Of a stretch of DNA of 22,172 bases, positions 484 to 19,058 are shown in pieces. How positions within the stretch are numbered: position 1 is the stretch's first letter; every line of letters starts with the position of its first letter. The notes below the pieces were generated by a model that saw nothing but the letters and a program-made list of their open reading frames with translations, ran no database searches and was not told the origin of the DNA. A program made the position numbers and the translations under genes. This stretch comes from a virus. Where the stretch lies: positions 1-22,172 of IMG/VR virus record IMGVR_UViG_3300009285_001137. One strand, written 5' to 3'.

Positions 484-1638
484 TCAGGCTTTCCGCATCT
501 CCACCAGGTCCCCATCGTCGGCGACGAAGACGACCGGGGTCTTGCTGTCGCACCACGCCCGGGCGGCCTTGCCCATATCCGCGTTGGGCGTCTCGTAGCG
601 CATCCCGTCGATGTAGATGCAGTAGAAAACCTTCTTCCCCTTTTCCGTCGTCGTGACCTTCTCGATGATGAAGGAGGTCTCCTGCGCGGCCCCGTCATTG
701 GCCCCTGCTTGGGACTGCGCAGCAGCTTCGGCAGGCGTCTCCGGGTCCTTCGCGGGCTCGGGGGCGGGCAGCGCTTTGGCCTCGCTCGCTCGCTTCGGCA
801 TCTCCGGGTCCACGGTGGGCTCGGCCGTCGTGTCTATGTACTTGGGGTTCCCTTCCTGGTCGAATACGGCCTGATCCTTGACCACGGCGTCCTGCATCTC
901 CGTCGAGAGCGGTCCCCACTTCGACAGCTCGTTCTTGACGACGGTCTTGGCGCACATCCCGTAGGTGCCACTCTTGTACGTGACCAGGCCCTTGAAGGAC
1001 TTGAGGTCGACGCGCCGGTCACGGCCGGTCCCGGTCTTCGGGATCAGTGGGTCGTCCGGCCATTGGCCGTTGCAGTAGCCGAAGCTCTTGGAGAACTTCC
1101 AGCCGTGAGCGATGCACTGAGCGGTCGACCAGTAGGCTTCATGGAGGAATCCGTTGGTCAGCTCGAAGTAGAAATAAAACCCCATGACCAGGTCGGACTT
1201 CTTGCGCGCCGCGTCGAGCCGGACGACGCCCTTGAACTCGTCGTACTCCACGAGCTGCCCCTCGAACACGGGGGCCAGGTGGATGCGGCGATACTTGCCC
1301 GTGCGGTGGGCGAGCTGCACGTAGCCCTTCCACTGCATCTGGAACTGCGCCTGGCCGCTGTACGGGACGAGCGCGGCCTGGCCGAGGCTCGGGTTGATGG
1401 GCAAGTCCAGGCTCGCCGCGACGGCCGCGGCCGCGAGGATGGACTGCGGGTCGCACTCCTGGAGCGCCTTGTTCGCCTGGTGCGCGCTGATGATCGAGGA
1501 AATAAACCCGGCCGACTTCTGTCCGAGTATCTCCCGGAAGCGCTTCTTCGCGGACTCGTCGCCGAGCATTTCCTTGAGCGACTTGTTCTTTGGGGCTAAC
1601 GCTTTCGTCTGCGGCTTCGTCTCCGTCGTGGTCTCCAT
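484..1638 (-). CDS. recT: RecT-family single-strand annealing recombinase with extra C-terminal domain
   Basis: RecT proteins bind single-stranded DNA and anneal complementary strands in phage recombination, usually with an exonuclease partner; none is visible here. The 384-residue product has the family core at about residues 25-250: SAHQANKALQECDPQSILAA, then LDLPINPSLGQAALVPY, FQMQWKGYVQLAHRTGKYR and MCAKTVVKNELSKWGPLS. Residues about 270-320 are a Pro/Ala/Glu-rich linker. Residues about 321-384 are an additional small domain not part of the standard RecT core. The ATG at 1638 is chosen because AAGGAG lies just upstream. An ATG at 1659 overlaps the previous stop as ATGA and would add seven residues (MKEKERD). 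It is probably co-transcribed with the small genes to its right. Family call secure; role of the tail unknown. Confidence 0.93.
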   Translation of the reverse strand: METTTETKPQTKALAPKNKSLKEMLGDESAKKRFREILGQKSAGFISSIISAHQANKALQECDPQSILAAAAVAASLDLPINPSLGQAALVPYSGQAQFQMQWKGYVQLAHRTGKYRRIHLAPVFEGQLVEYDEFKGVVRLDAARKKSDLVMGFYFYFELTNGFLHEAYWSTAQCIAHGWKFSKSFGYCNGQWPDDPLIPKTGTGRDRRVDLKSFKGLVTYKSGTYGMCAKTVVKNELSKWGPLSTEMQDAVVKDQAVFDQEGNPKYIDTTAEPTVDPEMPKRASEAKALPAPEPAKDPETPAEAAAQSQAGANDGAAQETSFIIEKVTTTEKGKKVFYCIYIDGMRYETPNADMGKAARAWCDSKTPVVFVADDGDLVEMRKA

Positions 1639-1655
1639 GTCTCTCTCCTTTTCCT

Positions 1656-1931
1656 TCATAGCGTCACTGGTCCGGCGGTCCTGGACCGGAGCGCACAATC
1701 GCACTCGCAGACCCGATAGTCCGCCCCGGTCCTCTTGTCCACGCCGCGATGGCTCGTCCCGTCGCACACGAGGCGCGTGTGGTCGGACTCGCCCAGGACC
1801 TTGTCGCTCTCGGGCCAGATGGGCTTAAGGTGGTCATCGCATAGGTCGGCAAGGGCCTTCTCGTCTACGGGCTTGCCGCAGCCGCGCACCGAGCAGGTCA
1901 CGAATCGGCCGCCGAGCATCTTGGTAGTCAT
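1656..1931 (-). CDS. Small Cys-rich, probably zinc-binding phage protein
   Basis: 91 residues with paired cysteines CSVRGCGKP near residue 13 and a CDDH motif near residue 31, resembling a short treble-clef or HNH-like zinc knuckle. Further cysteines follow near the C-terminus (VCECDC). The start ATG at 1931 overlaps the stop of the preceding gene (ATGA), and its own stop overlaps an ATG in front of recT, implying translational coupling. No HNH catalytic signature is complete, so nuclease activity is not claimed. I do not recognise a specific family. Confidence 0.6.
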   Translation of the reverse strand: MTTKMLGGRFVTCSVRGCGKPVDEKALADLCDDHLKPIWPESDKVLGESDHTRLVCDGTSHRGVDKRTGADYRVCECDCALRSRTAGPVTL

Positions 1932-2612: not shown

Positions 2613-2876
2613 CTACTCCGCATCCGCCCGGGCGATTGCGGCGCGCAGTGCCAGGATTTTCTCCGCGAAGCCGACGGGACCCTGCACGAGCCCGAAACCA
2701 TACACGAGGTCCCGCGCAGCCGATAGCAATTCCGGCGCAGCGGCAATGAGGCGGGCGTCATTCGCGCACACATTTTCCGCGACGCTCATATCATCGGAAG
2801 CGGTCACTTCCACGACCCCCCCGTGATTTTCTCCAATGGTCCACGGCCCCGGCGTGTGCTTCGATTCGGTTTTCAT
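2613..2876 (-). CDS. HTPGPW-type small phage protein (hypothetical)
   Basis: 87 residues beginning MKTESKHTPGPWTI and containing ANDARLIAAAPELLSAARDL. This combination, HTPGPW near the start and a NARLIAAAPELL-like helix, is a very common but functionally uncharacterised phage/prophage protein. The ATG at 2876 is preceded by GGAGGAG with a four-A spacer. That ribosome binding site lies inside the right arm of the repeat-containing leader described separately, so expression may be controlled by RNA folding. It is the first annotated gene after the strong promoter at 3024-3052. Confidence 0.8.
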   Translation of the reverse strand: MKTESKHTPGPWTIGENHGGVVEVTASDDMSVAENVCANDARLIAAAPELLSAARDLVYGFGLVQGPVGFAEKILALRAAIARADAE

Positions 2877-3013
2877 TTTTCTCCTCCATCGCATTTTGTC
2901 CTACAAAAAAGAGCGCCGGACCCCGGAGCCGACGTGCGATGGAGGGGGCGGATACCCTTCTCCCGTCGGTGGTTCCCCGAGGCCCGGCATAAAAAATCCG
3001 CTCCCATCTCCAT
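2873..3013 (-). CDS. Possible 46-codon leader ORF upstream of the HTPGPW gene
   Basis: ATG at 3013-3011 (a second in-frame ATG at 3007) opens a 46-codon frame. It runs through the whole leader and ends in a TGA overlapping the ATG of the next gene (ATGA). GGAG lies just before it, although the predicted transcript start is so close that initiation may be nearly leaderless. The peptide (MEMGADFLCRASG..., basic) matches nothing I know. The exact stop-start coupling is suggestive, but an open frame of this size is not rare in GC-rich DNA. Confidence 0.3.
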   Translation of the reverse strand: MEMGADFLCRASGNHRREKGIRPLHRTSAPGSGALFCRTKCDGGEK

Positions 3014-3017
3014 CGCA
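2883..3017 (-). promoter_or_regulatory. Structured leader with three copies of a 10-nt word that can form alternative hairpins
   Basis: On the minus strand TGCGATGGAG occurs at 3017-3008 and 2893-2884, and its exact complement CTCCATCGCA at 2944-2935. The middle copy can pair with the first (10 bp) or with the last (11 bp when the flanking base is included), but not both. The last copy includes the GGAG ribosome binding site of the gene starting at 2876. The first copy begins at about the transcription start predicted from the promoter. This is the layout of a translational switch or attenuator. No ligand class is recognisable. Confidence 0.5.
2905..2929 (-). terminator. Terminator-like hairpin with T-tract inside the leader
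   Basis: Minus-strand 2929-2913 can fold as GC, one mismatch, then CCGG/CCGG around a 3-nt loop. It is followed by TCTTTTTT at 2912-2905. It lies between the promoter and the first gene, so it could act as an attenuator. The stem is short and has a mismatch, so strength is uncertain. Confidence 0.4.
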
Positions 3018-3023
3018 TCTCCA

Positions 3024-3052
3024 AGGATAGCACGATACTGGTCATTTGTCAA
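3024..3052 (-). promoter_or_regulatory. Sigma70-type promoter, TTGACA-17-TATCCT
   Basis: On the minus strand a perfect -35 TTGACA (3052-3047) is separated by exactly 17 bp from a -10 TATCCT (3029-3024, four of six consensus bases). The surroundings are AT-richer than the window. The predicted transcript start is near 3016-3018. It lies downstream of the ribbon-helix-helix gene and would drive the HTPGPW gene, the small genes and recT. Confidence 0.75.
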
Positions 3053-3070: not shown

Positions 3071-3271
3071 CTATTTTTCTTGGTTGAACTTACGGATGAT
3101 CTCCTCCACCATCGCGCTCCGACTCCGGTGCTCGGACGCCGCCAGCGCATCCAAGCGGGACAGCATATCCGGGTCCATGGTGATGGTCACGCGATCCTTC
3201 CGTCCGTATCTCCCCTCCGGGTGCTTCGCCGGATGCTCGTGCATTTCGCGCGACTCCCACATTTTATCCAT
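3071..3271 (-). CDS. Ribbon-helix-helix (CopG/Arc-type) DNA-binding protein
   Basis: 66 residues. The C-terminal half has the ribbon-helix-helix pattern: a strand DRVTITMDPDMLSRLDALA followed by SEHRSRSAMVEEIIRKF. The MDPDML strand-turn, the small/basic turn and the second helix SAMVEEIIRKF are typical of CopG-like repressors, which act as dimers inserting a beta strand in the DNA major groove. The ATG at 3271 has GAGGGAGGG upstream; a longer frame to 3439 lacks such support. It sits directly upstream of the promoter at 3024-3052, so it is the natural candidate regulator of that promoter (inference). An antitoxin role is possible, but no toxin partner is recognised next to it. Confidence 0.8.
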   Translation of the reverse strand: MDKMWESREMHEHPAKHPEGRYGRKDRVTITMDPDMLSRLDALAASEHRSRSAMVEEIIRKFNQEK

Positions 3272-3972: not shown

Positions 3973-4242
3973 CTAGGGCTGGGGGAGCTCGCCCGGGACC
4001 GGGGCGGGGTTGACTGGTTTGGTCAACCTCTGATCCCCCGCGATCTTGTCGATGCGCGCATCGATGCGCTTTTCGATCCGGTCCACCGCCATTTTGAGCA
4101 TTTCGGCTGGGACGAACCGGAGCAGAATCCGCAGGATGGTGTCCACGCGGGCCAGGGCCACGGCCAGCGCGGCGATGATGGAATGGCTGGCGAGGAAATG
4201 GTCCTTGACGAAATCCATAACAACGGCGGTCAGTTGGTCCAT
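3973..4242 (-). CDS. Small membrane-associated phage protein, possible holin-class
   Basis: 89 residues starting MDQLTAVVMDFVKDHFLASH, with GGAGG upstream of the ATG at 4242. A hydrophobic helix (SIIAALAVALARVDTILRIL) spans about residues 20-40. An amphipathic charged helix MAVDRIEKRIDARIDKIAG and a Pro-rich tail follow. One potential membrane span plus a charged coiled tail fits small lysis or membrane-anchored proteins, but there is no decisive signature. It follows DUF1353 closely and precedes the 41-residue membrane protein. Confidence 0.6.
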   Translation of the reverse strand: MDQLTAVVMDFVKDHFLASHSIIAALAVALARVDTILRILLRFVPAEMLKMAVDRIEKRIDARIDKIAGDQRLTKPVNPAPVPGELPQP

Positions 4243-6025: not shown

Positions 6026-6485
6026 CGAAGTATACCGCCTCCCTCACCTCGTCCTCTGCCTGCGCCCAAGCCCCACTCTGCGGCTGGATGATGTAGAGGC
6101 TCTTGTCCGTCAGCGCCCACGCCGCCCGATGGCAGACACCGTCCTTGCGGATATAGTCCACGCCGCCCATCGCCTCGGGGATGCGGAGGCCCGCCTTCCA
6201 GCGATAGCGGATGCGGTCAGCGCGGAACAGCCCTTCAAGGTCGTCGCAATCGCAGACCTCGGCCTCGTAATTGGGGTAGACGGAACGGGCGTTGAAGCAG
6301 AACTTCTCCGCGAGGTCGTGCCGCATGGCGAGGAAGCTCTTGTCCTTCAGGAGAGAGAGCATGGCCGCACCGCCCACGGTTCCGGTCAGGCGCACCAATC
6401 CGAGGAGCCTCCCGAGCAGGGCCTCCCGCGAATAGGTCACGCTCCCGGCGTGGTAGTCGAGTCGGCGGAAGGGCCAGATGCTCAT
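6018..6485 (-). CDS. Putative DCDD...H transglutaminase-like/cysteine-enzyme-type phage protein
   Basis: 155 residues starting MSIWPFRRLDYHAGS. The C-terminal half contains VCDCDDLEGLFRADRI (about residues 77-92), then CHRAAWALTDKSLYIIQPQSG. This Cys-Asp-Asp followed by His and a terminal QPQ/EPQ motif resembles a phage family of papain or transglutaminase-like fold. In such a fold Cys, His and Asp/Gln would be catalytic. I recall the motif pattern but cannot confirm the family. Its start overlaps the stop of the tail fibre (ATGA), and it lies right before the holin-like gene. That makes it a candidate for a late cell-wall or maturation enzyme. No standard endolysin is otherwise visible. Confidence 0.55.
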   Translation of the reverse strand: MSIWPFRRLDYHAGSVTYSREALLGRLLGLVRLTGTVGGAAMLSLLKDKSFLAMRHDLAEKFCFNARSVYPNYEAEVCDCDDLEGLFRADRIRYRWKAGLRIPEAMGGVDYIRKDGVCHRAAWALTDKSLYIIQPQSGAWAQAEDEVREAVYFDA

Positions 6486-8506
6486 GGCTTCGCCACCTGT
6501 GCCTTCGCCTTCACTTTCGCTTCCAATGCCGCCACCCGCGCCGCCAGTTCCCGACTTCCCTTCTCAGCCGCGAGCATCCGCTTCCGGAGCATCTGCACTT
6601 CCTGCACTAGCGCGGACGCGATTGCGTTGGGGTCTACTCCGGTCAGCTTCCCGGCGGGGACCGACGCCGATGGCATGACCGACGCGACCTCCTCCGCTAT
6701 GAATCCTGACCTCTGGATGGTGGGGGAGTCCTTCATGCGGTAGAGGACCGGGCGCAGGTCGTCGATGCGCGCCGGGTCATAGGGCAGGGCCGACACTCCC
6801 TGCTTTAGCTTGATGCTGGATGCGACGCACCCATCAAACTTCCCGGCGGCGTCGGTCGTAGCCCCGAGCGTACAGTCCTTTGCCGTCTCTTGCTGGATGG
6901 ACCCGGAGAACTCTGCTCGCGCCGCCGTAAAGGTGATGGTGGAGACGCTTGCAGATATTCCTTCCGCCTGTTTCCATATTGCGATCGTGTTCCCGCAACC
7001 CTCCGTCCCGCAGACGCCGATGCTCATTACCCCATCCACCACCTGATGGGTAAAACTCCCTGAGTTGTCGGTTTCGGTGTACTGCATCCCCGGGGCCGAC
7101 CCCAGAAGCATAAGTCCCCTCGTCCCACCGCCATCGACGATGGTCAGCGATGAGAGAGATACTGTTACTGGTCCGATGATGGTAGGTGCCGTCAGCGTCC
7201 CGCTCGAAAAGAAATGAGAGGCCACCGCCGTCCCTGTCACATCCAGCTTCGTCGTGGGCGCGGTGTTGCCAATGCCGACGTTGCCCAGGTTCCCCGCCAG
7301 TATCGCCCCGCCACGAAGATGCAAAGATTTGTATGGCGAGACATTCTGCGTCCCGACATTCAGGATTGCATTGTAGGCGGCGGAATTGACGGGATAGTCT
7401 CCAGCGGCAGTCCCAATGGATAGGACCTTCATAGACATTCCCGGGGTTCCTCCACCGATTGAGTCCCCGAAGTAAGCGATAGGTTCACCACGGATAGAGG
7501 CGGTGGTTACGGTCAGCACCCCGTTTACATCTAACTTTGCCGACGGAGCCGTCGTCCCCACCCCCACATTCCCCCCGAAATAGGCCCCCGCGTTGGCGGA
7601 GAGGGGGAGGGCGTTGAAGCAGACAGATGCCGTTGACGGACAGATGCCCCCGCCGAAGGTCCCCGTCGCCGCGCTCACGCCTGCCCCCGAGATAGTCAGG
7701 CTCCCCGTCATCGTGTCCCCGGCCTTCAGGACATTCAGGGAGGAGGCTCCGGTCAGGGAGGAGGTGATGGTGCCCGCGCTGAAGTTTCCACTTCCATCGC
7801 GATGCACCAGTGTGTTGATAGTATTCGCAGAAGCGGAACCGTGAGTCCCGGCCGCAGTCAGGGCGTTGTGGCCGTATAGCTGATTGCTCGTTACCGGGGC
7901 CGTAGACCCATTGACCATCGAGTCGAAGACGGCGGCGCATGAGGACACGCCTGCGGCACTGATGTCGAAGGTCACGCTCCCGGCGGCACAGCCAGCGGGG
8001 TCAGCGGCCAGGGCCGTTGCGGTCCCTGCGCTTCCAGACACATTCCCCGTGACATTCCCGGTCAATGCCGCGGTGATGGCCCCCGCGCTGAAATTGCCGC
8101 TCCCGTCTCTCGCTACGATCTGCGAGGCTGTGTTTGCTGACGCCGCACCGTGAGCGTCCGCCCCGGTCAGGGAGGCGTGGGCTTGGGTCGCCACGCCAAC
8201 GGCGACCAGTTCCACGCGCAGGGCGGCGGACGACACCCCCGCCGCCATGGAATCGGTCTTGAGGCCAGCCGTAGAGACTCCGACAGCCACGAACCGCGCC
8301 TCGTAGGTCGCGGAGGAGCCGACAACGGTGGACGAAGATATGGCGTCGAGGGATCGGTTGATACATCCGAACATCTCCGTACCCGAGGCCCCGGCGCGCA
8401 CCTTCTCCAAGGTCAGCGGGCCGCTGGTGTTCTGGCATCCGGCGCCTGCGGCCCAGGCCTGCGACCCCGTCAGGATCAAAACCGCCGCGAGAGCGATGCG
8501 CTTCAT
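6482..8506 (-). CDS. Tail fibre with C-terminal S74 intramolecular chaperone and N-terminal signal peptide
   Basis: 674 residues. The C-terminus (about 563-674) is a peptidase S74 chaperone. It has the Ser/Lys start SSIKLKQGVSALPYDPARI, then LRPVLYRMKD, SGFIAEEVASVMP and a terminal coiled coil. In this family the domain trimerises the fibre and then cuts itself off just before the Ser. The middle is Ala/Gly/Ser/Thr-rich beta-helical repeat, with two DGSGNFSAG units near residues 134 and 237 and several VGVGTTAPSAKLDV-type modules. Unusually, the N-terminus MKRIALAAVLILTGSQAWA looks like a Sec signal peptide with an AWA site. GGAGGAGATACT precedes the ATG, which overlaps the hub-gene stop. Confidence 0.85.
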   Translation of the reverse strand: MKRIALAAVLILTGSQAWAAGAGCQNTSGPLTLEKVRAGASGTEMFGCINRSLDAISSSTVVGSSATYEARFVAVGVSTAGLKTDSMAAGVSSAALRVELVAVGVATQAHASLTGADAHGAASANTASQIVARDGSGNFSAGAITAALTGNVTGNVSGSAGTATALAADPAGCAAGSVTFDISAAGVSSCAAVFDSMVNGSTAPVTSNQLYGHNALTAAGTHGSASANTINTLVHRDGSGNFSAGTITSSLTGASSLNVLKAGDTMTGSLTISGAGVSAATGTFGGGICPSTASVCFNALPLSANAGAYFGGNVGVGTTAPSAKLDVNGVLTVTTASIRGEPIAYFGDSIGGGTPGMSMKVLSIGTAAGDYPVNSAAYNAILNVGTQNVSPYKSLHLRGGAILAGNLGNVGIGNTAPTTKLDVTGTAVASHFFSSGTLTAPTIIGPVTVSLSSLTIVDGGGTRGLMLLGSAPGMQYTETDNSGSFTHQVVDGVMSIGVCGTEGCGNTIAIWKQAEGISASVSTITFTAARAEFSGSIQQETAKDCTLGATTDAAGKFDGCVASSIKLKQGVSALPYDPARIDDLRPVLYRMKDSPTIQRSGFIAEEVASVMPSASVPAGKLTGVDPNAIASALVQEVQMLRKRMLAAEKGSRELAARVAALEAKVKAKAQVAKP

Positions 8507-11013
8507 AGTATCTCCTCCGCCAGAATTTCAGCATGACCCGTATCGTAATTCGGTTTATATTCGAGGACCTTCATCTCCAGAGCGTTGGCGAGGATGTTCT
8601 GGGGGGTGTCCAGGACCATCTGGGAGCCCACGCGCGCGCAGGGGTCATTGGCGACGGCGTGGAGCATGATGGATTGGTCAGCCACCGTTACCGTCACCTT
8701 GTCGGAGATGTCGAGCCATGGGACCAGCCATGTCGAAAGCCGCAGGCGTATCCTTGGCTCATGTCCGCGCTCGAAGGCTATTTGCGCCCGGGCCGCGGCG
8801 ATGTCCACGTCATTGGCGAGGGCGCGGGTCCCGAGGTTGATGCCGCCCCCGGGGGGAAGGACGCGCCCGTACTCCTCCTCGCAGGTGGGGGACGATTCCC
8901 CCGCGTCGGCCGCGTCGTACTCCGCGACGTAACTCCCATACTGGACCTTCCCCACCGTGACGACCCGGTCCCGCCCGTCGTCGTAGTCCAGGACGTCGAT
9001 TATTCCGTTCTCCTGGGTCAGGTGGACGACGGACTCCATGCTGACGTCCTTGGACCGGATGAACAGCTTTCCGTCGGGGTCGTCGCCGCCCTCGTAGTCG
9101 ATCATCTTGAGGTAGGCTTCAATGGAGGCCCCGCAGCTCGCGTCCGTTCCGAGGTTCGCCAGGGAGATAATGACTTCGGTCGTGTAGAACTCAGCGCGGA
9201 AGCTCTGCACCACGGGGCCGGCGTAGCGCGTGGTGGCGTCGTCGAACTTGACCCGTATTTTGAGCCATTGCTTCGCGGTGTGATTCATCTGGCCGTCAGA
9301 GTCGGTCGTGACCAGTGCGTCCCACGCTCCCGGACTCCCGCCAGAGTCCACGGCTCCCGCGCTCTGAAAGGTCAGCGTCCCCCCGTTCAGGGATCCGACG
9401 TAGGTGATGCGGCCCATGGCCGTGGGGACCGAGGCCAGGTCGAAGATGTAGACGATCTCATTGTCCGAGGTTGACCAGGAGCCCGAGTCGCCGTATGCGC
9501 CCTCGGCCCATTGCGCGTCCGTCAACATGACCAGGTTGTAGTCGGTCCCGAAGGCTACGGCGTTGACCTCGATGACGTAGGACAGGACCGTGGGGACGGG
9601 GTCCTCGCTGACCGTACCCTGGCTGATGCCTCCGCGCCAGAGCTCGAACGTCCCGGATGAGTCGATGGTGATACGAAAGGCGACACCTCCCGAAGTGGGA
9701 TTCGCCCCGAGGCTCTTTAGCGAGGTCCAGACCCCGGCCGTCTGCCGGCCGAAGTAGCAGCTCCCCGACTGCGAGAAGACGATGCCGTAATGCCCCCGGT
9801 TCGTGACCATGACCTTGATGTAGGCCACCTCGTCCGGGGAGGCCGTGGACTCGATGGATACTTGGGCGCTGAAATGGATGGTCCGAACAGTCGCCAGGGC
9901 CGTGGTCGTGTATGTCTTCCACGCCTTCGCGGAGGCCGAGCCGGGGCCGCCGAGTGGACCCGTGCCGACTCCGAGGTATCCGGCGTCCGAGGTGTAGGTC
10001 CCCCCGGCGAGCGTTGACCATTCTGAGTGTCCGGCCGCCGAGAAGTCGGCTATGGAGTGGAACTGTTGCTGGCCGCTCCCCTCCTCAATGGCCGTGTCGA
10101 TGTTGACGCGCGAGTCATCGGCGTCCCACTCGACTACGGAATCGACCTCCTTGAACCCGGTGGCCGACGGGATGGTGATAGATCCGATGGTCCTCTGGGC
10201 CGCCAGGACCCCGGCCTGGTCGGCGAGGAGGCCGAGCAGGACGCCCAGCTCCTGATTCTGGAGCCACTTCCGGCCCGAGCATTTCACGGTCTGCCCGGCG
10301 AGAGGAGCGTCGGTCAGAGCGAAGGCGACCCGGCCCGTGTTTCCGGGGATGGCTATTTGGTTCGTATTCGACACGCTGTAGGAGTTGCGGGATAGCGTAA
10401 CGGCATTGACTTGCAGGTCGGTGATGTCGTTGACTCCGAGCGAGGTGCTCTCAAAATCCTTATTCGACCCGTCACCTGTCGCCGGGATGCAGTCCTCCAG
10501 TGTAAACGTGGTGGAGACCTTGCCCGGGTCCGACTTCTCAAGCTGTAGGGCGGCCTTGCTCATGACCCGGATCGCGGCGACCCCGCTCCCGGTCATCTTA
10601 GGGCCGAGTGCGATACTAGTGAACTCCGTGACCCATTCGGTAGACCCGGAAGAAAGCTCGTAGCCGCATTGGATAATGAACTCGCTCTTGAACAGGCGGT
10701 AGCCGTCCGTTGCCGTGTCGTCTGCGGCGAAGATGCTGGGCACCGCGGCCGACTGCTTCCACTCGTTGCGTATGTTCTTGAAGGACAGCGTCACCACGCT
10801 CGACTTGATGACGTTCTGCTGCTGACTGTCGATGGCCCAGGGGATAGTCCCGACTCCGACGAAGTCCTGCTCGTACAGGTAGTTGTAGCTCGACTCCAGG
10901 ACGAAGGCGGCCCCGCTCCAATACCTGCGCTTGTAGCCGATGCGGAGCTTGTAGCCCTTCCGGACCTTCGCCGCCCAGATTGCCTTGAACTCGTCGGAGA
11001 CCGTGCGGGCCAT
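8503..11013 (-). CDS. Tail hub/tip protein
   Basis: 836 residues beginning MARTVSDEFKAIWAAKVRKG. The N-terminal 200 residues look like a beta-rich tail-tip domain (NVIKSSVVTLSFKNIRNEW, CGYELSSGSTEWVTEF). Residues about 330-490 have a lectin-like beta-sandwich flavour (TIHFSAQVSIES, FELWRGGISQG). The C-terminal 200 residues contain SKDVSMESVVHLTQENGIID and WLVPWLDISDKVTVTVADQS. These are hub features seen in proteins placed after the tape measure and distal tail genes. Its stop overlaps the fibre start. It probably caps the tail and carries the fibre. Large-domain assignments are inferred from sequence feel and position. Confidence 0.7.
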   Translation of the reverse strand: MARTVSDEFKAIWAAKVRKGYKLRIGYKRRYWSGAAFVLESSYNYLYEQDFVGVGTIPWAIDSQQQNVIKSSVVTLSFKNIRNEWKQSAAVPSIFAADDTATDGYRLFKSEFIIQCGYELSSGSTEWVTEFTSIALGPKMTGSGVAAIRVMSKAALQLEKSDPGKVSTTFTLEDCIPATGDGSNKDFESTSLGVNDITDLQVNAVTLSRNSYSVSNTNQIAIPGNTGRVAFALTDAPLAGQTVKCSGRKWLQNQELGVLLGLLADQAGVLAAQRTIGSITIPSATGFKEVDSVVEWDADDSRVNIDTAIEEGSGQQQFHSIADFSAAGHSEWSTLAGGTYTSDAGYLGVGTGPLGGPGSASAKAWKTYTTTALATVRTIHFSAQVSIESTASPDEVAYIKVMVTNRGHYGIVFSQSGSCYFGRQTAGVWTSLKSLGANPTSGGVAFRITIDSSGTFELWRGGISQGTVSEDPVPTVLSYVIEVNAVAFGTDYNLVMLTDAQWAEGAYGDSGSWSTSDNEIVYIFDLASVPTAMGRITYVGSLNGGTLTFQSAGAVDSGGSPGAWDALVTTDSDGQMNHTAKQWLKIRVKFDDATTRYAGPVVQSFRAEFYTTEVIISLANLGTDASCGASIEAYLKMIDYEGGDDPDGKLFIRSKDVSMESVVHLTQENGIIDVLDYDDGRDRVVTVGKVQYGSYVAEYDAADAGESSPTCEEEYGRVLPPGGGINLGTRALANDVDIAAARAQIAFERGHEPRIRLRLSTWLVPWLDISDKVTVTVADQSIMLHAVANDPCARVGSQMVLDTPQNILANALEMKVLEYKPNYDTGHAEILAEEIL

Positions 11014-15007: not shown

Positions 15008-15418
15008 TTAGAGCTTGAGGACCGCGATGGAGAGGCCCACCGTGTCCGATATTGTGAAACTGACCAGCTCGTTCGCATCGTTGAACAGGCTGGCCGGGAA
15101 CGGCCCCGTGAACACGTCCCCGCTCGTCGCGGCGACGCTTACGGTCTGGTCGCCGATGGCGTAGCCCTGCATGGTGGCCTGCGTGACGACGGTCACGGTG
15201 CAGTCGCCCGCCCCGGTCTTTTTGAAATGGACGAAGACCCTCCCGTCGTTGTTGAACTGGTAGGTATTGCCCGTCGCCAGCCCGGTGCTGGTATAGGTGG
15301 GTGTCGAGCCCGCCTTGGCGATCTGCTGCACCGACACGCTCACATCCGACGCCATCGCCGGGGCCGAGAACGCCAGGGCCAGCAAGGCCCCCAGGAACAT
15401 CTTCGTCAACTTCGTCAT
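15008..15418 (-). CDS. Decoration-like phage protein carrying a Sec signal peptide
   Basis: 136 residues with AAGGAGGAG upstream of the ATG at 15418. The N-terminus MTKLTKMFLGALLALAFSAP ends in AMA before SDVSV, a good signal peptide. The mature part contains VSVQQIAKAGSTPTYTSTG, YQFNNDGRVFVHFKKTG, TVSVAATSGDVFTGPFPASL and a beta-rich end. I associate this small beta fold (NDGRVF...HVKN, TGPFP) with virion decoration or minor structural proteins, which normally lack a signal peptide. It sits between tail terminator and tail tube. Export would place it in the periplasm or outside the cell, unless the peptide is retained as an anchor. Confidence 0.7.
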   Translation of the reverse strand: MTKLTKMFLGALLALAFSAPAMASDVSVSVQQIAKAGSTPTYTSTGLATGNTYQFNNDGRVFVHFKKTGAGDCTVTVVTQATMQGYAIGDQTVSVAATSGDVFTGPFPASLFNDANELVSFTISDTVGLSIAVLKL

Positions 15419-17369: not shown

Positions 17370-19058
17370 TCAGCGCCATAACCCCACCATGGCGTTGACC
17401 TGATCGATGCGCTTCCCGAGCTTTCCCTCCAGGTGTTTGTCTCCTACCGCCCTGGCGAAGGCCAGATGGCGGAGCATGGGGGGCATGAACGTCGGGGCCA
17501 GTTCTTGTGCCCGGCCGAACGCCGCCCCAGCGATATTGACATTGACCGGGACCCCCGAGGCGTAGGCGATGACGACGGCCTTGCCGAACAGCTCATGAGA
17601 GTAGGAGTCCCGGGGGTGGTCCGCTACGGCCTGGTGCGCCGTGATCATGAGGGCCTCGGCCATGGGCGCACGCACTGATGCGGGGACGCTCCCGAGCGTA
17701 GCCGCCGCCGACTCGACGTGACGGGTGAGATAAAGCATATCCCACGGATGCAGAAGGTGCGCCCGCTGGTAAAAATATGCCTTGTCGGCCCTGGCCTCGG
17801 GCGGGAGCGTGACCGCGCGGGCGGCCATCCATGAGGCCCCTACCATGCGCGCCGACGTGAAACAAACCAGGACCCCGAGCGCGACGGAAGCCCACCGCAT
17901 CGGCTGGGCCGCCTTGAACTTATAGCCGGAGGCCACCCCGAATATGGCCGCGAGGACGCAGTAGACCGACCCGGAGACGGGATTGAACTTGGAGAAGACG
18001 AAGTATGCCGCGAGCATCCCCGCGAGCGCGAGAGAGTCCTCGTCGTCGCTTTGGACGGTGACGACCAGGACCGCCGCACATCCCAGGAGAGCATAGGTCA
18101 GCAGGCCGAACAGGCCCATGGTGGCCGCGACGTGCAAGACGTCGTTGTGCGCGTGAGCCTGTACGACATGCGTCCCTCCAACATGTCCCAGGTACTCGGG
18201 GGAGATGTTCGCCCGAAGGTAGAGCAGAAAATCGCTCGTCCCTATCCCGGTCAGTGGGTTGTCCGAGAAGGCCCGCCACGCGATGTGCCAGACGTCCCAT
18301 CGGGCGCCGTCCACCGCCTCGAGATGGGACGCATGCATCCGGGAGAACACGACGCACAGAACCACCAAACCCCCGGCGGCGGCCGACCACTTGCGCCACT
18401 TGGCGGGGGCCATGACCAGGAGACCAGCACACATCGCCAGGGCCGCTCCGCGGGTCTGGGTCAGGGCCATGGCCACGAAGCAGAGGCCCAGGACTACCCC
18501 GCCAAGCCAATCCTTGCGGCGCAGTAGAGATGCCGCGGACACCGACACGAGCGACACCATGGCTCCTAGGTAGATGGGACCACCCTGCGTAGATCCAGCT
18601 CGCCCCCCCAGGACCCCCGTATGGAGCGTCTGCCCATCCGGGAGGAGCGGGTCCGACGACACGACTCCCTGGGCCAGGGCGTAGATCAACATGGGTAGGG
18701 CCGACATGCAGAGCAGGCGCATGGAGTCGCTCACCGTGATCCCGGAGCGAGCGGCCCCGGCTATCACGACCAGGTAGAGACCCATCGCCATGATCGAGTC
18801 GAATGGCTGCAGGACGTATGATCCGACCAACGAGTACCTCCAATCCATCCCGCGTGCTGCCGACACCAGTCCGGCCACCAGGAGCAGAGCCATGAATGGC
18901 TCCAGGTAGGATGGCTCCCGGTCCCGGGACAAGACCAATAGGGCGAGCGCGGCTAGCCCCGCCGCGAGGAACTTGGGGATGACGTAGGGGTCCATGATCC
19001 CCGGGATGAAAAAGGTCACGGAACCAAACAGGACGCAGAAGAACAGGTCGCGCTTCAT
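17370..19058 (-). CDS. Wzy/O-antigen ligase family (Wzy_C) membrane polymerase
   Basis: 562 residues with about ten or more hydrophobic spans over the first 400, for example PKFLAAGLAALALLVL and GGVVLGLCFVAMALTQTRGA. The Wzy_C signature is clear: GSTQGGPIYLGAMVSLVSVS, then ALTQTRGAAL, then HAHNDVLHVAATMGLFGLLT, with the conserved outside loop. The last about 140 residues are soluble and helical, TPR-like. Members polymerise or ligate O-antigen, capsule or glycan chains on the periplasmic face of the inner membrane. Phage-borne copies of this family can alter host surface glycans. It is in the head gene series, between the capsid and connector genes, which is unusual. GGGAG precedes the ATG. 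Confidence 0.85.
   Translation of the reverse strand: MKRDLFFCVLFGSVTFFIPGIMDPYVIPKFLAAGLAALALLVLSRDREPSYLEPFMALLLVAGLVSAARGMDWRYSLVGSYVLQPFDSIMAMGLYLVVIAGAARSGITVSDSMRLLCMSALPMLIYALAQGVVSSDPLLPDGQTLHTGVLGGRAGSTQGGPIYLGAMVSLVSVSAASLLRRKDWLGGVVLGLCFVAMALTQTRGAALAMCAGLLVMAPAKWRKWSAAAGGLVVLCVVFSRMHASHLEAVDGARWDVWHIAWRAFSDNPLTGIGTSDFLLYLRANISPEYLGHVGGTHVVQAHAHNDVLHVAATMGLFGLLTYALLGCAAVLVVTVQSDDEDSLALAGMLAAYFVFSKFNPVSGSVYCVLAAIFGVASGYKFKAAQPMRWASVALGVLVCFTSARMVGASWMAARAVTLPPEARADKAYFYQRAHLLHPWDMLYLTRHVESAAATLGSVPASVRAPMAEALMITAHQAVADHPRDSYSHELFGKAVVIAYASGVPVNVNIAGAAFGRAQELAPTFMPPMLRHLAFARAVGDKHLEGKLGKRIDQVNAMVGLWR

Follow-up and report, generated by a model that had tools for sequence, protein, structure and literature searches.

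The leader of an operon on a 22,172-base DNA record contains a 10-nt word, its complement and the same word again, and on balance we favour the reading that this leader exerts autogenous control through an antisense RNA of the C4/CI kind, either diverged from the known examples or convergent with them. The DNA is a whole IMG/VR record, here called the window, and is probably a fragment of a phage genome. Judged from the sequence, the C4/CI layout would be what is known, and a different sequence and fold in an unrelated phage would be what is new. Since the layout of a known RNA fits, an autogenous antisense RNA is more likely than a switch operated by a ligand. The transcript, its ends, the pairing in trans, the sign of the regulation and any role in immunity are parts of this reading that we infer.

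The leader and its three repeats

The likely genes of the window are all located on the minus strand, in a compact array with a single direction (Table 1). The leader, about 140 nt in length, sits in a gap of 194 nt, which is among the two longest gaps of the array. The ribbon-helix-helix (RHH) gene adjoins it on the upstream side, and the order downstream is the 87-aa gene, small genes and RecT. The 87-aa protein belongs to a family without known function (PHROG 1273), and no Pfam match was found for it. The RecT gene that follows on this strand assigns the region to early/replication functions, and from the gene order the leader therefore stands at the head of an early/recombination operon, where late genes give way to early ones. 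Neither an integrase nor an immunity repressor could be recognised among the genes of the 22-kb fragment, which counts against the C4/CI reading.

Table 1. Position and basis of the main features of the window
Feature	Position	Strand	Basis
Capsid gene (Pfam Phage_capsid), tail and probable late genes	high coordinates downward, before the RHH gene	-	
Arc/CopG-like ribbon-helix-helix repressor gene	3071..3271	-	Pfam RHH_1 E=1e-9; PHROG Arc-like repressor
Promoter of sigma-70 type, TTGACA-17-TATCCT, extended -10 (TG)	3024..3052	-	consensus match
Copy 1, TGCGATGGAG, putative upstream target box	3008..3017	-	exact match; placement relative to the promoter; P1/P4 comparison
Element C, folded, 74 nt: closing stem GCCGGGCCUCGGGG/CUCCGGGGUCCGGC (14 bp) and CCGACG/CGUCGG (6 bp), inner hairpin	2915..2988	-	predicted fold
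Copy 2, CTCCATCGCA, putative antisense box, complementary to copies 1 and 3	2935..2944	-	exact match
Terminator-like tail: hairpin CGUCGG..CCGGCG (2934-2914) or larger closing stem, then CTCTTTTTT (2913-2905)	2905..2934	-	sequence
Copy 3, TGCGATGGAG, putative downstream target box	2884..2893	-	exact match
87-aa "HTPGPW" phage protein, first gene after the leader	2613..2876	-	PHROG 1273, hmmscan E=4e-14
RecT-like annealing protein	484..1662	-	PHROG 148 E=4e-55; Pfam RecT

A preliminary description of this DNA had reported three exact copies of the word, the first at the transcription start predicted from the promoter and the last over the ribosome binding site of the next gene, and all of this was confirmed. 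Apart from the promoter, no site on either strand of the window reaches 10 of 12 consensus matches, and the start predicted from the promoter, at 3018/3017, coincides with copy 1. The exact 10-mer is confined to its three sites in the window; a single match with one mismatch is located far away, at 15023. Copies 1 and 3 have 11 nt in common (ATGCGATGGAG), and the complementarity of copy 2 to copy 3 extends over 11 nt. Copy 3 overlaps the Shine-Dalgarno sequence GGAGGAG (2887-2881) and stops 7 nt short of the ATG at 2876. No second triple of at least 7 nt was found inside the leader, which thus has a single box only. A classical leader peptide was considered and rejected, since the frame from the ATG at 3018 stays open through the gene start with no stop.

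The earlier judgement that such an arrangement is very unlikely by chance was borne out by simulation. The longest triple of word, complement and word within 200 nt measured 10 nt in the window and 7-9 nt in 150 Markov-1 simulations of it, of which only two reached 9 nt and none contained a 10-mer triple (0/150). Triples of 8-mers occurred in 47 of 60,000 simulated 194-nt gaps of the same composition, which places 10-mer triples at an order of 1e-5 or less. Triples of 10-mers within 250 nt were present in 7 of 254 records, the window included, from 3.2 Mb of phage and prophage DNA, and none were expected from simulated versions of the 254 records. A chance origin of the triple is excluded.

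Two further features were observed around the promoter. An 11-bp tandem, TGGAGATGCGA/TGGAGATGGGA, at 3023-3002 (minus strand) spans the predicted start and overlaps copy 1, and it could serve as an operator for the RHH protein encoded directly upstream, which is a possible DNA-level regulator of the leader promoter. The 3' end of the RHH gene contains GCGATGGTGGAG at 3115-3104 (minus strand), identical at 11 of 12 positions to GCGATGGAGGAG at copy 3. This site lies within a 33-nt stretch that is 73% complementary to 2948-2916, and readthrough from the RHH gene could supply it as an extra pairing partner.

Predicted folds of the leader

Copy 2 had been described as able to pair with either end copy, so that two exclusive hairpins would form a switch in cis. 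The two pairings are indeed exclusive at the RNA level, but the folding of both states argues against the switch. The hairpin of copies 1 and 2 (fold A) has a predicted energy of -42.4 kcal/mol in cis, and 2 of 1000 shuffled sequences were as good. With both end copies present, the fold with copies 2 and 3 paired was about 6.7 kcal/mol worse than the one with copies 1 and 2 paired (-54.8 vs -61.5 kcal/mol); the probability of the former pairing was about zero at every transcript length, and it was favoured only without copy 1. A cis switch with copies 2 and 3 paired as its main state was thus rejected on energy. The extension of the stem of copies 1 and 2 past 10 bp, equalled by 273 of 2000 shuffles, was not used as evidence.

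The true competitor of fold A is a 20-bp closing stem (14+6 bp), overlooked in the preliminary description, in which GCCGGGCCUCGGGG-AACCA-CCGACG (2988-2964) pairs with CGUCGG-CUCCGGGGUCCGGC (2934-2915). The energy of this duplex was -44 kcal/mol as compared to a shuffle mean of -30 kcal/mol, and 3 of 2000 and 0 of 2000 shuffles showed complementarity as good, counts that are post hoc as the pairing was noticed after folding. Element C, which this stem closes, has a predicted energy of -47.7 kcal/mol (4 of 1000 shuffles as good), and copy 2 is contained in a compact hairpin with a z-score of about -3.8. Within element C, the bases AUCGCA of copy 2 (2940-2935) are placed in the internal loop on the 3' side and the rest of the box is paired; after removal of copy 1 these six bases were unpaired with a probability of 0.90-1.0. 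Based on these models we propose that element C may be the body of an antisense RNA. The duplex of the box has a predicted energy of -16.7 kcal/mol, as compared to -7 to -11 kcal/mol for single boxes of P1 and P4. Cofolding predicted no strong intermolecular pairing for the leader, and the known C4 pairs were likewise missed by cofolding.

The terminator-like hairpin that had been placed at 2929-2905 is present, but its stem spans 2934-2914 and is followed by a run of six T at 2910-2905. The small hairpin alone was matched by 550 of 2000 shuffles and was not used as evidence.

The main rival to an antisense RNA is a switch or attenuator that works only in cis and involves no trans-acting RNA. 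The hairpin of copies 1 and 2 with the small terminator would alternate with the large closing stem (or copies 2 and 3 would pair and hide the Shine-Dalgarno sequence), steered by a ligand, a protein, the ribosome or the speed of the polymerase. Folds A and C, each significant on its own, overlap and share bases, so that they are mutually exclusive, and their energies are nearly equal around position +116, just past a T-run that is rightly placed for such a device. Two exclusive folds, a T-run and a possible occlusion of the Shine-Dalgarno sequence are also what the leader has in common with riboswitches and attenuators. It differs from these in its three identical boxes and in having neither a conserved ligand-binding core nor a match to a known riboswitch family. 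Moreover, the pairing of copies 2 and 3 is disfavoured in cis, and a hairpin precedes the T-run in both folds, hence there is no clear choice between terminator and antiterminator. The 11-nt identity of copies 1 and 3 is needless for an attenuator in cis, whereas an antisense RNA acting in trans needs it. We therefore regard control in cis alone as rather unlikely.

Comparison with known C4 and CI RNAs

The window was searched with 4227 Rfam models, at the gathering score and then at a relaxed threshold of E<=5, and matched none of them, known riboswitch and leader families included. This agrees with the earlier statement that no known riboswitch family is recognised, although the layout of the known C4/CI RNAs fits. 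For C4 (RF01695), c4-a1b1 (RF03163) and isrK (RF01394) in particular, no match was found in the window at either threshold. The leader is not a member of these three families, given that no model matches, that it has one box and not two, and that its fold and downstream genes are different.

Eight known C4 loci, from P1, P4, P7, PY54, phiKO2, D6, 48ST307 and NAR688, were examined for comparison. The known loci recovered by BLAST with the P1 and P4 leaders are all from enterobacterial phages, and the eight loci examined all matched the Rfam C4 model with 69-81 bits. Exact triples of 7-8 nt of the box/complement/box kind were found in 8 of 8 loci; for PY54, phiKO2, NAR688 and 48ST307, the same scan yielded no more than a single fitting exact 7-mer triple each. 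The boxes are TTGACAG and GTTAGTG in P1, TTAGCAG and GATTGTG in P7, TTCACAGG and GTGAGAA in P4, and GCAAAAGG and TTGAGAC in D6, with GTAGGAA in PY54, phiKO2 and 48ST307 and GTGAGAA in NAR688. The letters of the boxes thus vary by phage or immunity type, which suggests that the boxes act as specificity determinants and change together. Because they change together, conservation of the box sequence is not to be expected.

The annotation of the P1 record lists the promoter P1c4, the a1/b1 targets, a 77-nt C4 RNA and the a2/b2 targets, and the last target site (b2) ends 11 nt before icd. C4 binds around the ribosome binding site, and the complementary sequences are likely to be located in loops (PMC12197685). 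The P1 and P7 C4 regions resemble the leader in having a promoter, a 5' target box, a folded antisense RNA of about 75 nt and a box on the Shine-Dalgarno sequence, all on one transcript and with exact boxes across three places. They differ in having two boxes of 7-8 nt, as compared to the single 10-nt box of the leader, and a spacing from the first box to its complement of 111-139, as compared to 73. The leader also has another order of stems, no similarity in sequence or model, a T-run after the element and a downstream gene that is no homologue of icd, kil or ant.

The P4 locus (L253) contains TTCACAGG at 8651, its complement at 8463 and the same sequence again at 8384, on the Shine-Dalgarno sequence of the next gene. 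The P4 CI RNA has two pairing partners, seqA on its upstream side and seqC on its downstream side, and causes termination (PMC4825925). The leader is similar in that a middle sequence (seqB in P4) is complementary to both flanking ones, the last of which covers the Shine-Dalgarno sequence. Copy 1 would thus correspond to seqA of P4 and a1/b1 of P1, copy 2 to seqB, and copy 3 to seqC of P4 and b2 of P1. In contrast to the leader, P4 matches Rfam C4, has two boxes and carries its terminator-like hairpin after seqA, whereas that of the leader follows the middle copy. The P4 seqA hairpin was observed to match Rfam isrK, with seqB within Rfam C4, and the P4 annotation still gives a cI protein gene.

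The fold of the Rfam C4 model, a 17-bp closing stem round two hairpins with the boxes in the second loop and the 3' junction, is not that of element C, which has a closing stem of 14+6 bp, one inner hairpin and a box that is half paired. The seed of copy 2, in the internal loop on the 3' side, resembles in this the 3' junction of C4, which is single-stranded. Among the features of the functional class C4/CI, the leader has the same box on both sides of its complement behind a promoter, and a downstream box on the Shine-Dalgarno sequence of the first gene; it does not have the two boxes a and b. The leader therefore has both of the layout features that define the class and can be read from the bases, with the stable trans-acting RNA itself only predicted.

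Proposed mechanism and further alternatives

In the autogenous antisense reading, one strong promoter would give a transcript with copy 1 as its first ten bases and copy 3 in its Shine-Dalgarno region. Copy 2 would sit between them in a folded, GC-rich RNA and be complementary to both. Termination at the T-run, or processing, could release an RNA of about 75-110 nt that exposes the seed AUCGCA. In trans, the released RNA would pair with copy 3 in transcripts that read through, so that the first early gene is left untranslated, and it would also pair with copy 1 of nascent transcripts. A copy 1 paired in trans could not open the antisense RNA in cis, and the nascent leader would refold to the antisense/terminator form. 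In a first infection, with no such RNA present, copy 1 would capture copy 2 once made, the Shine-Dalgarno sequence would stay free of copy 2, and the operon would be on.

A stronger version, which we find doubtful, is that the leader is a single-box, bistable RNA immunity switch of the C4/CI type with an origin independent of the known C4 family. Bound to the first ten bases of every new transcript, the antisense RNA would tip the nascent leader to the antisense/terminator fold, resulting in a self-renewing memory made of RNA only. The same layout with unrelated sequence and fold would mean, if true, that autogenous antisense immunity evolves repeatedly and escapes family models.

The signature of the layout, a word of at least 8 nt that recurs after its own complement, the second occurrence being near a Shine-Dalgarno sequence and a start codon, was searched on both strands of 3.2 Mb. 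Five loci were found. One is the window itself, another the P4 locus, which is known and served as positive control, and the others are L010, L002 and L222. The matches in L002 and L222 are apparently located inside coding sequence and were rejected. The signature is rare, and its recovery of the P4 locus without a sequence model offers a route to more cases. The match in L010, a phage contig, was likewise set aside: at 4056-4180, TGAGAAGTAA and its complement alternate, four copies in all, around a promoter-like sequence before a 119-aa gene, and these copies are probably repressor operators. A scan of IMG/VR for the exact full triple gave 0 matches, and a pair of copies 2 and 3 recovered by such a scan, in L262, proved to be a fortuitous hairpin of 14 bp, located in an unrelated tail region.

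None of 80 IMG/VR loci with homologues of the HTPGPW protein (about 31-48% identity) had the leader, and the triple was absent from 70 homologues of this downstream gene. At such distance, and with no related leader among them, these homologues do not bear on the refutation proposed in the preliminary description. Relatives of RecT in IMG/VR and GTDB genomes showed about 33-42% identity and those of the capsid protein 29-45%; searches with the tail protein and the RHH protein gave no relatives. The leader DNA had no match in phages or in any fetched locus, and no close relatives of the phage were found in IMG/VR, GTDB species genomes or GenBank phages. Since the leader is absent from all of the relatives found, covariation gives no support to fold A or fold C, which counts against the C4/CI reading.

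The copies could also be DNA operators, that is, repressor sites around the promoter, for example for the upstream-encoded RHH protein. The RHH gene lies directly upstream, copy 1 overlaps the 11-bp tandem beside the start site, and the alternating 10-mers of L010 around a promoter provide an operator-like parallel. Such a role is possible for copy 1, the only copy at the promoter. Copies 2 and 3, however, lie 74 and 125 nt downstream without the tandem, copy 3 is on the Shine-Dalgarno sequence, and no copies of the word were found at other promoters of the window. The complementarity of the closing stem and the exclusive folds would be left unexplained, and we consider operators an unlikely account of all three copies.

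Still less probable is a device like IsrK of Gifsy-1 (RF01394), in which a short terminated RNA would activate its own readthrough mRNA in trans by freeing the Shine-Dalgarno sequence. Readthrough of the IsrK terminator gives an inactive mRNA, which the short form activates in trans (PMC4825925). The window has a promoter, a T-run and a Shine-Dalgarno sequence that could be sequestered, and the leader shares with IsrK a terminator, alternative folds and a short form that would act on its own readthrough mRNA; the isrK family is also matched by the seqA leader of P4. In IsrK, however, the terminator precedes the complementary target and the 30-nt pairing is inside the coding region, whereas here copy 2 covers the Shine-Dalgarno box directly, which fits repression and not the activation exerted by IsrK. 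The missing isrK match in the window also argues against it.

Template switching can yield short inverted and direct copies. A leftover of such a duplication, copying an 11-nt stretch forward and inverted and without any regulatory role, would agree with the absence of conservation among homologues and is nevertheless highly improbable, since one event would not be expected to place copy 1 at the predicted start and copy 3 on the Shine-Dalgarno sequence, nor to produce a further pair of complementary stretches interleaved with the copies (0-3 of 2000 shuffles).

Three other proteins of the window were observed, all encoded on the minus strand. A 562-aa protein of the Wzy/O-antigen ligase family (17370-19058; Pfam Wzy_C E=6e-18) is located amid the head and tail genes, an unusual cargo for an array of structural genes. 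A DUF7666 protein (1-405) is truncated by the end of the window and contains the start of a repeating ALATGDQGAALAT. A 674-aa protein (6482-8506) displays recurring VAVGVST-like segments and is presumably akin to tail-fibre proteins that end in an endosialidase chaperone.
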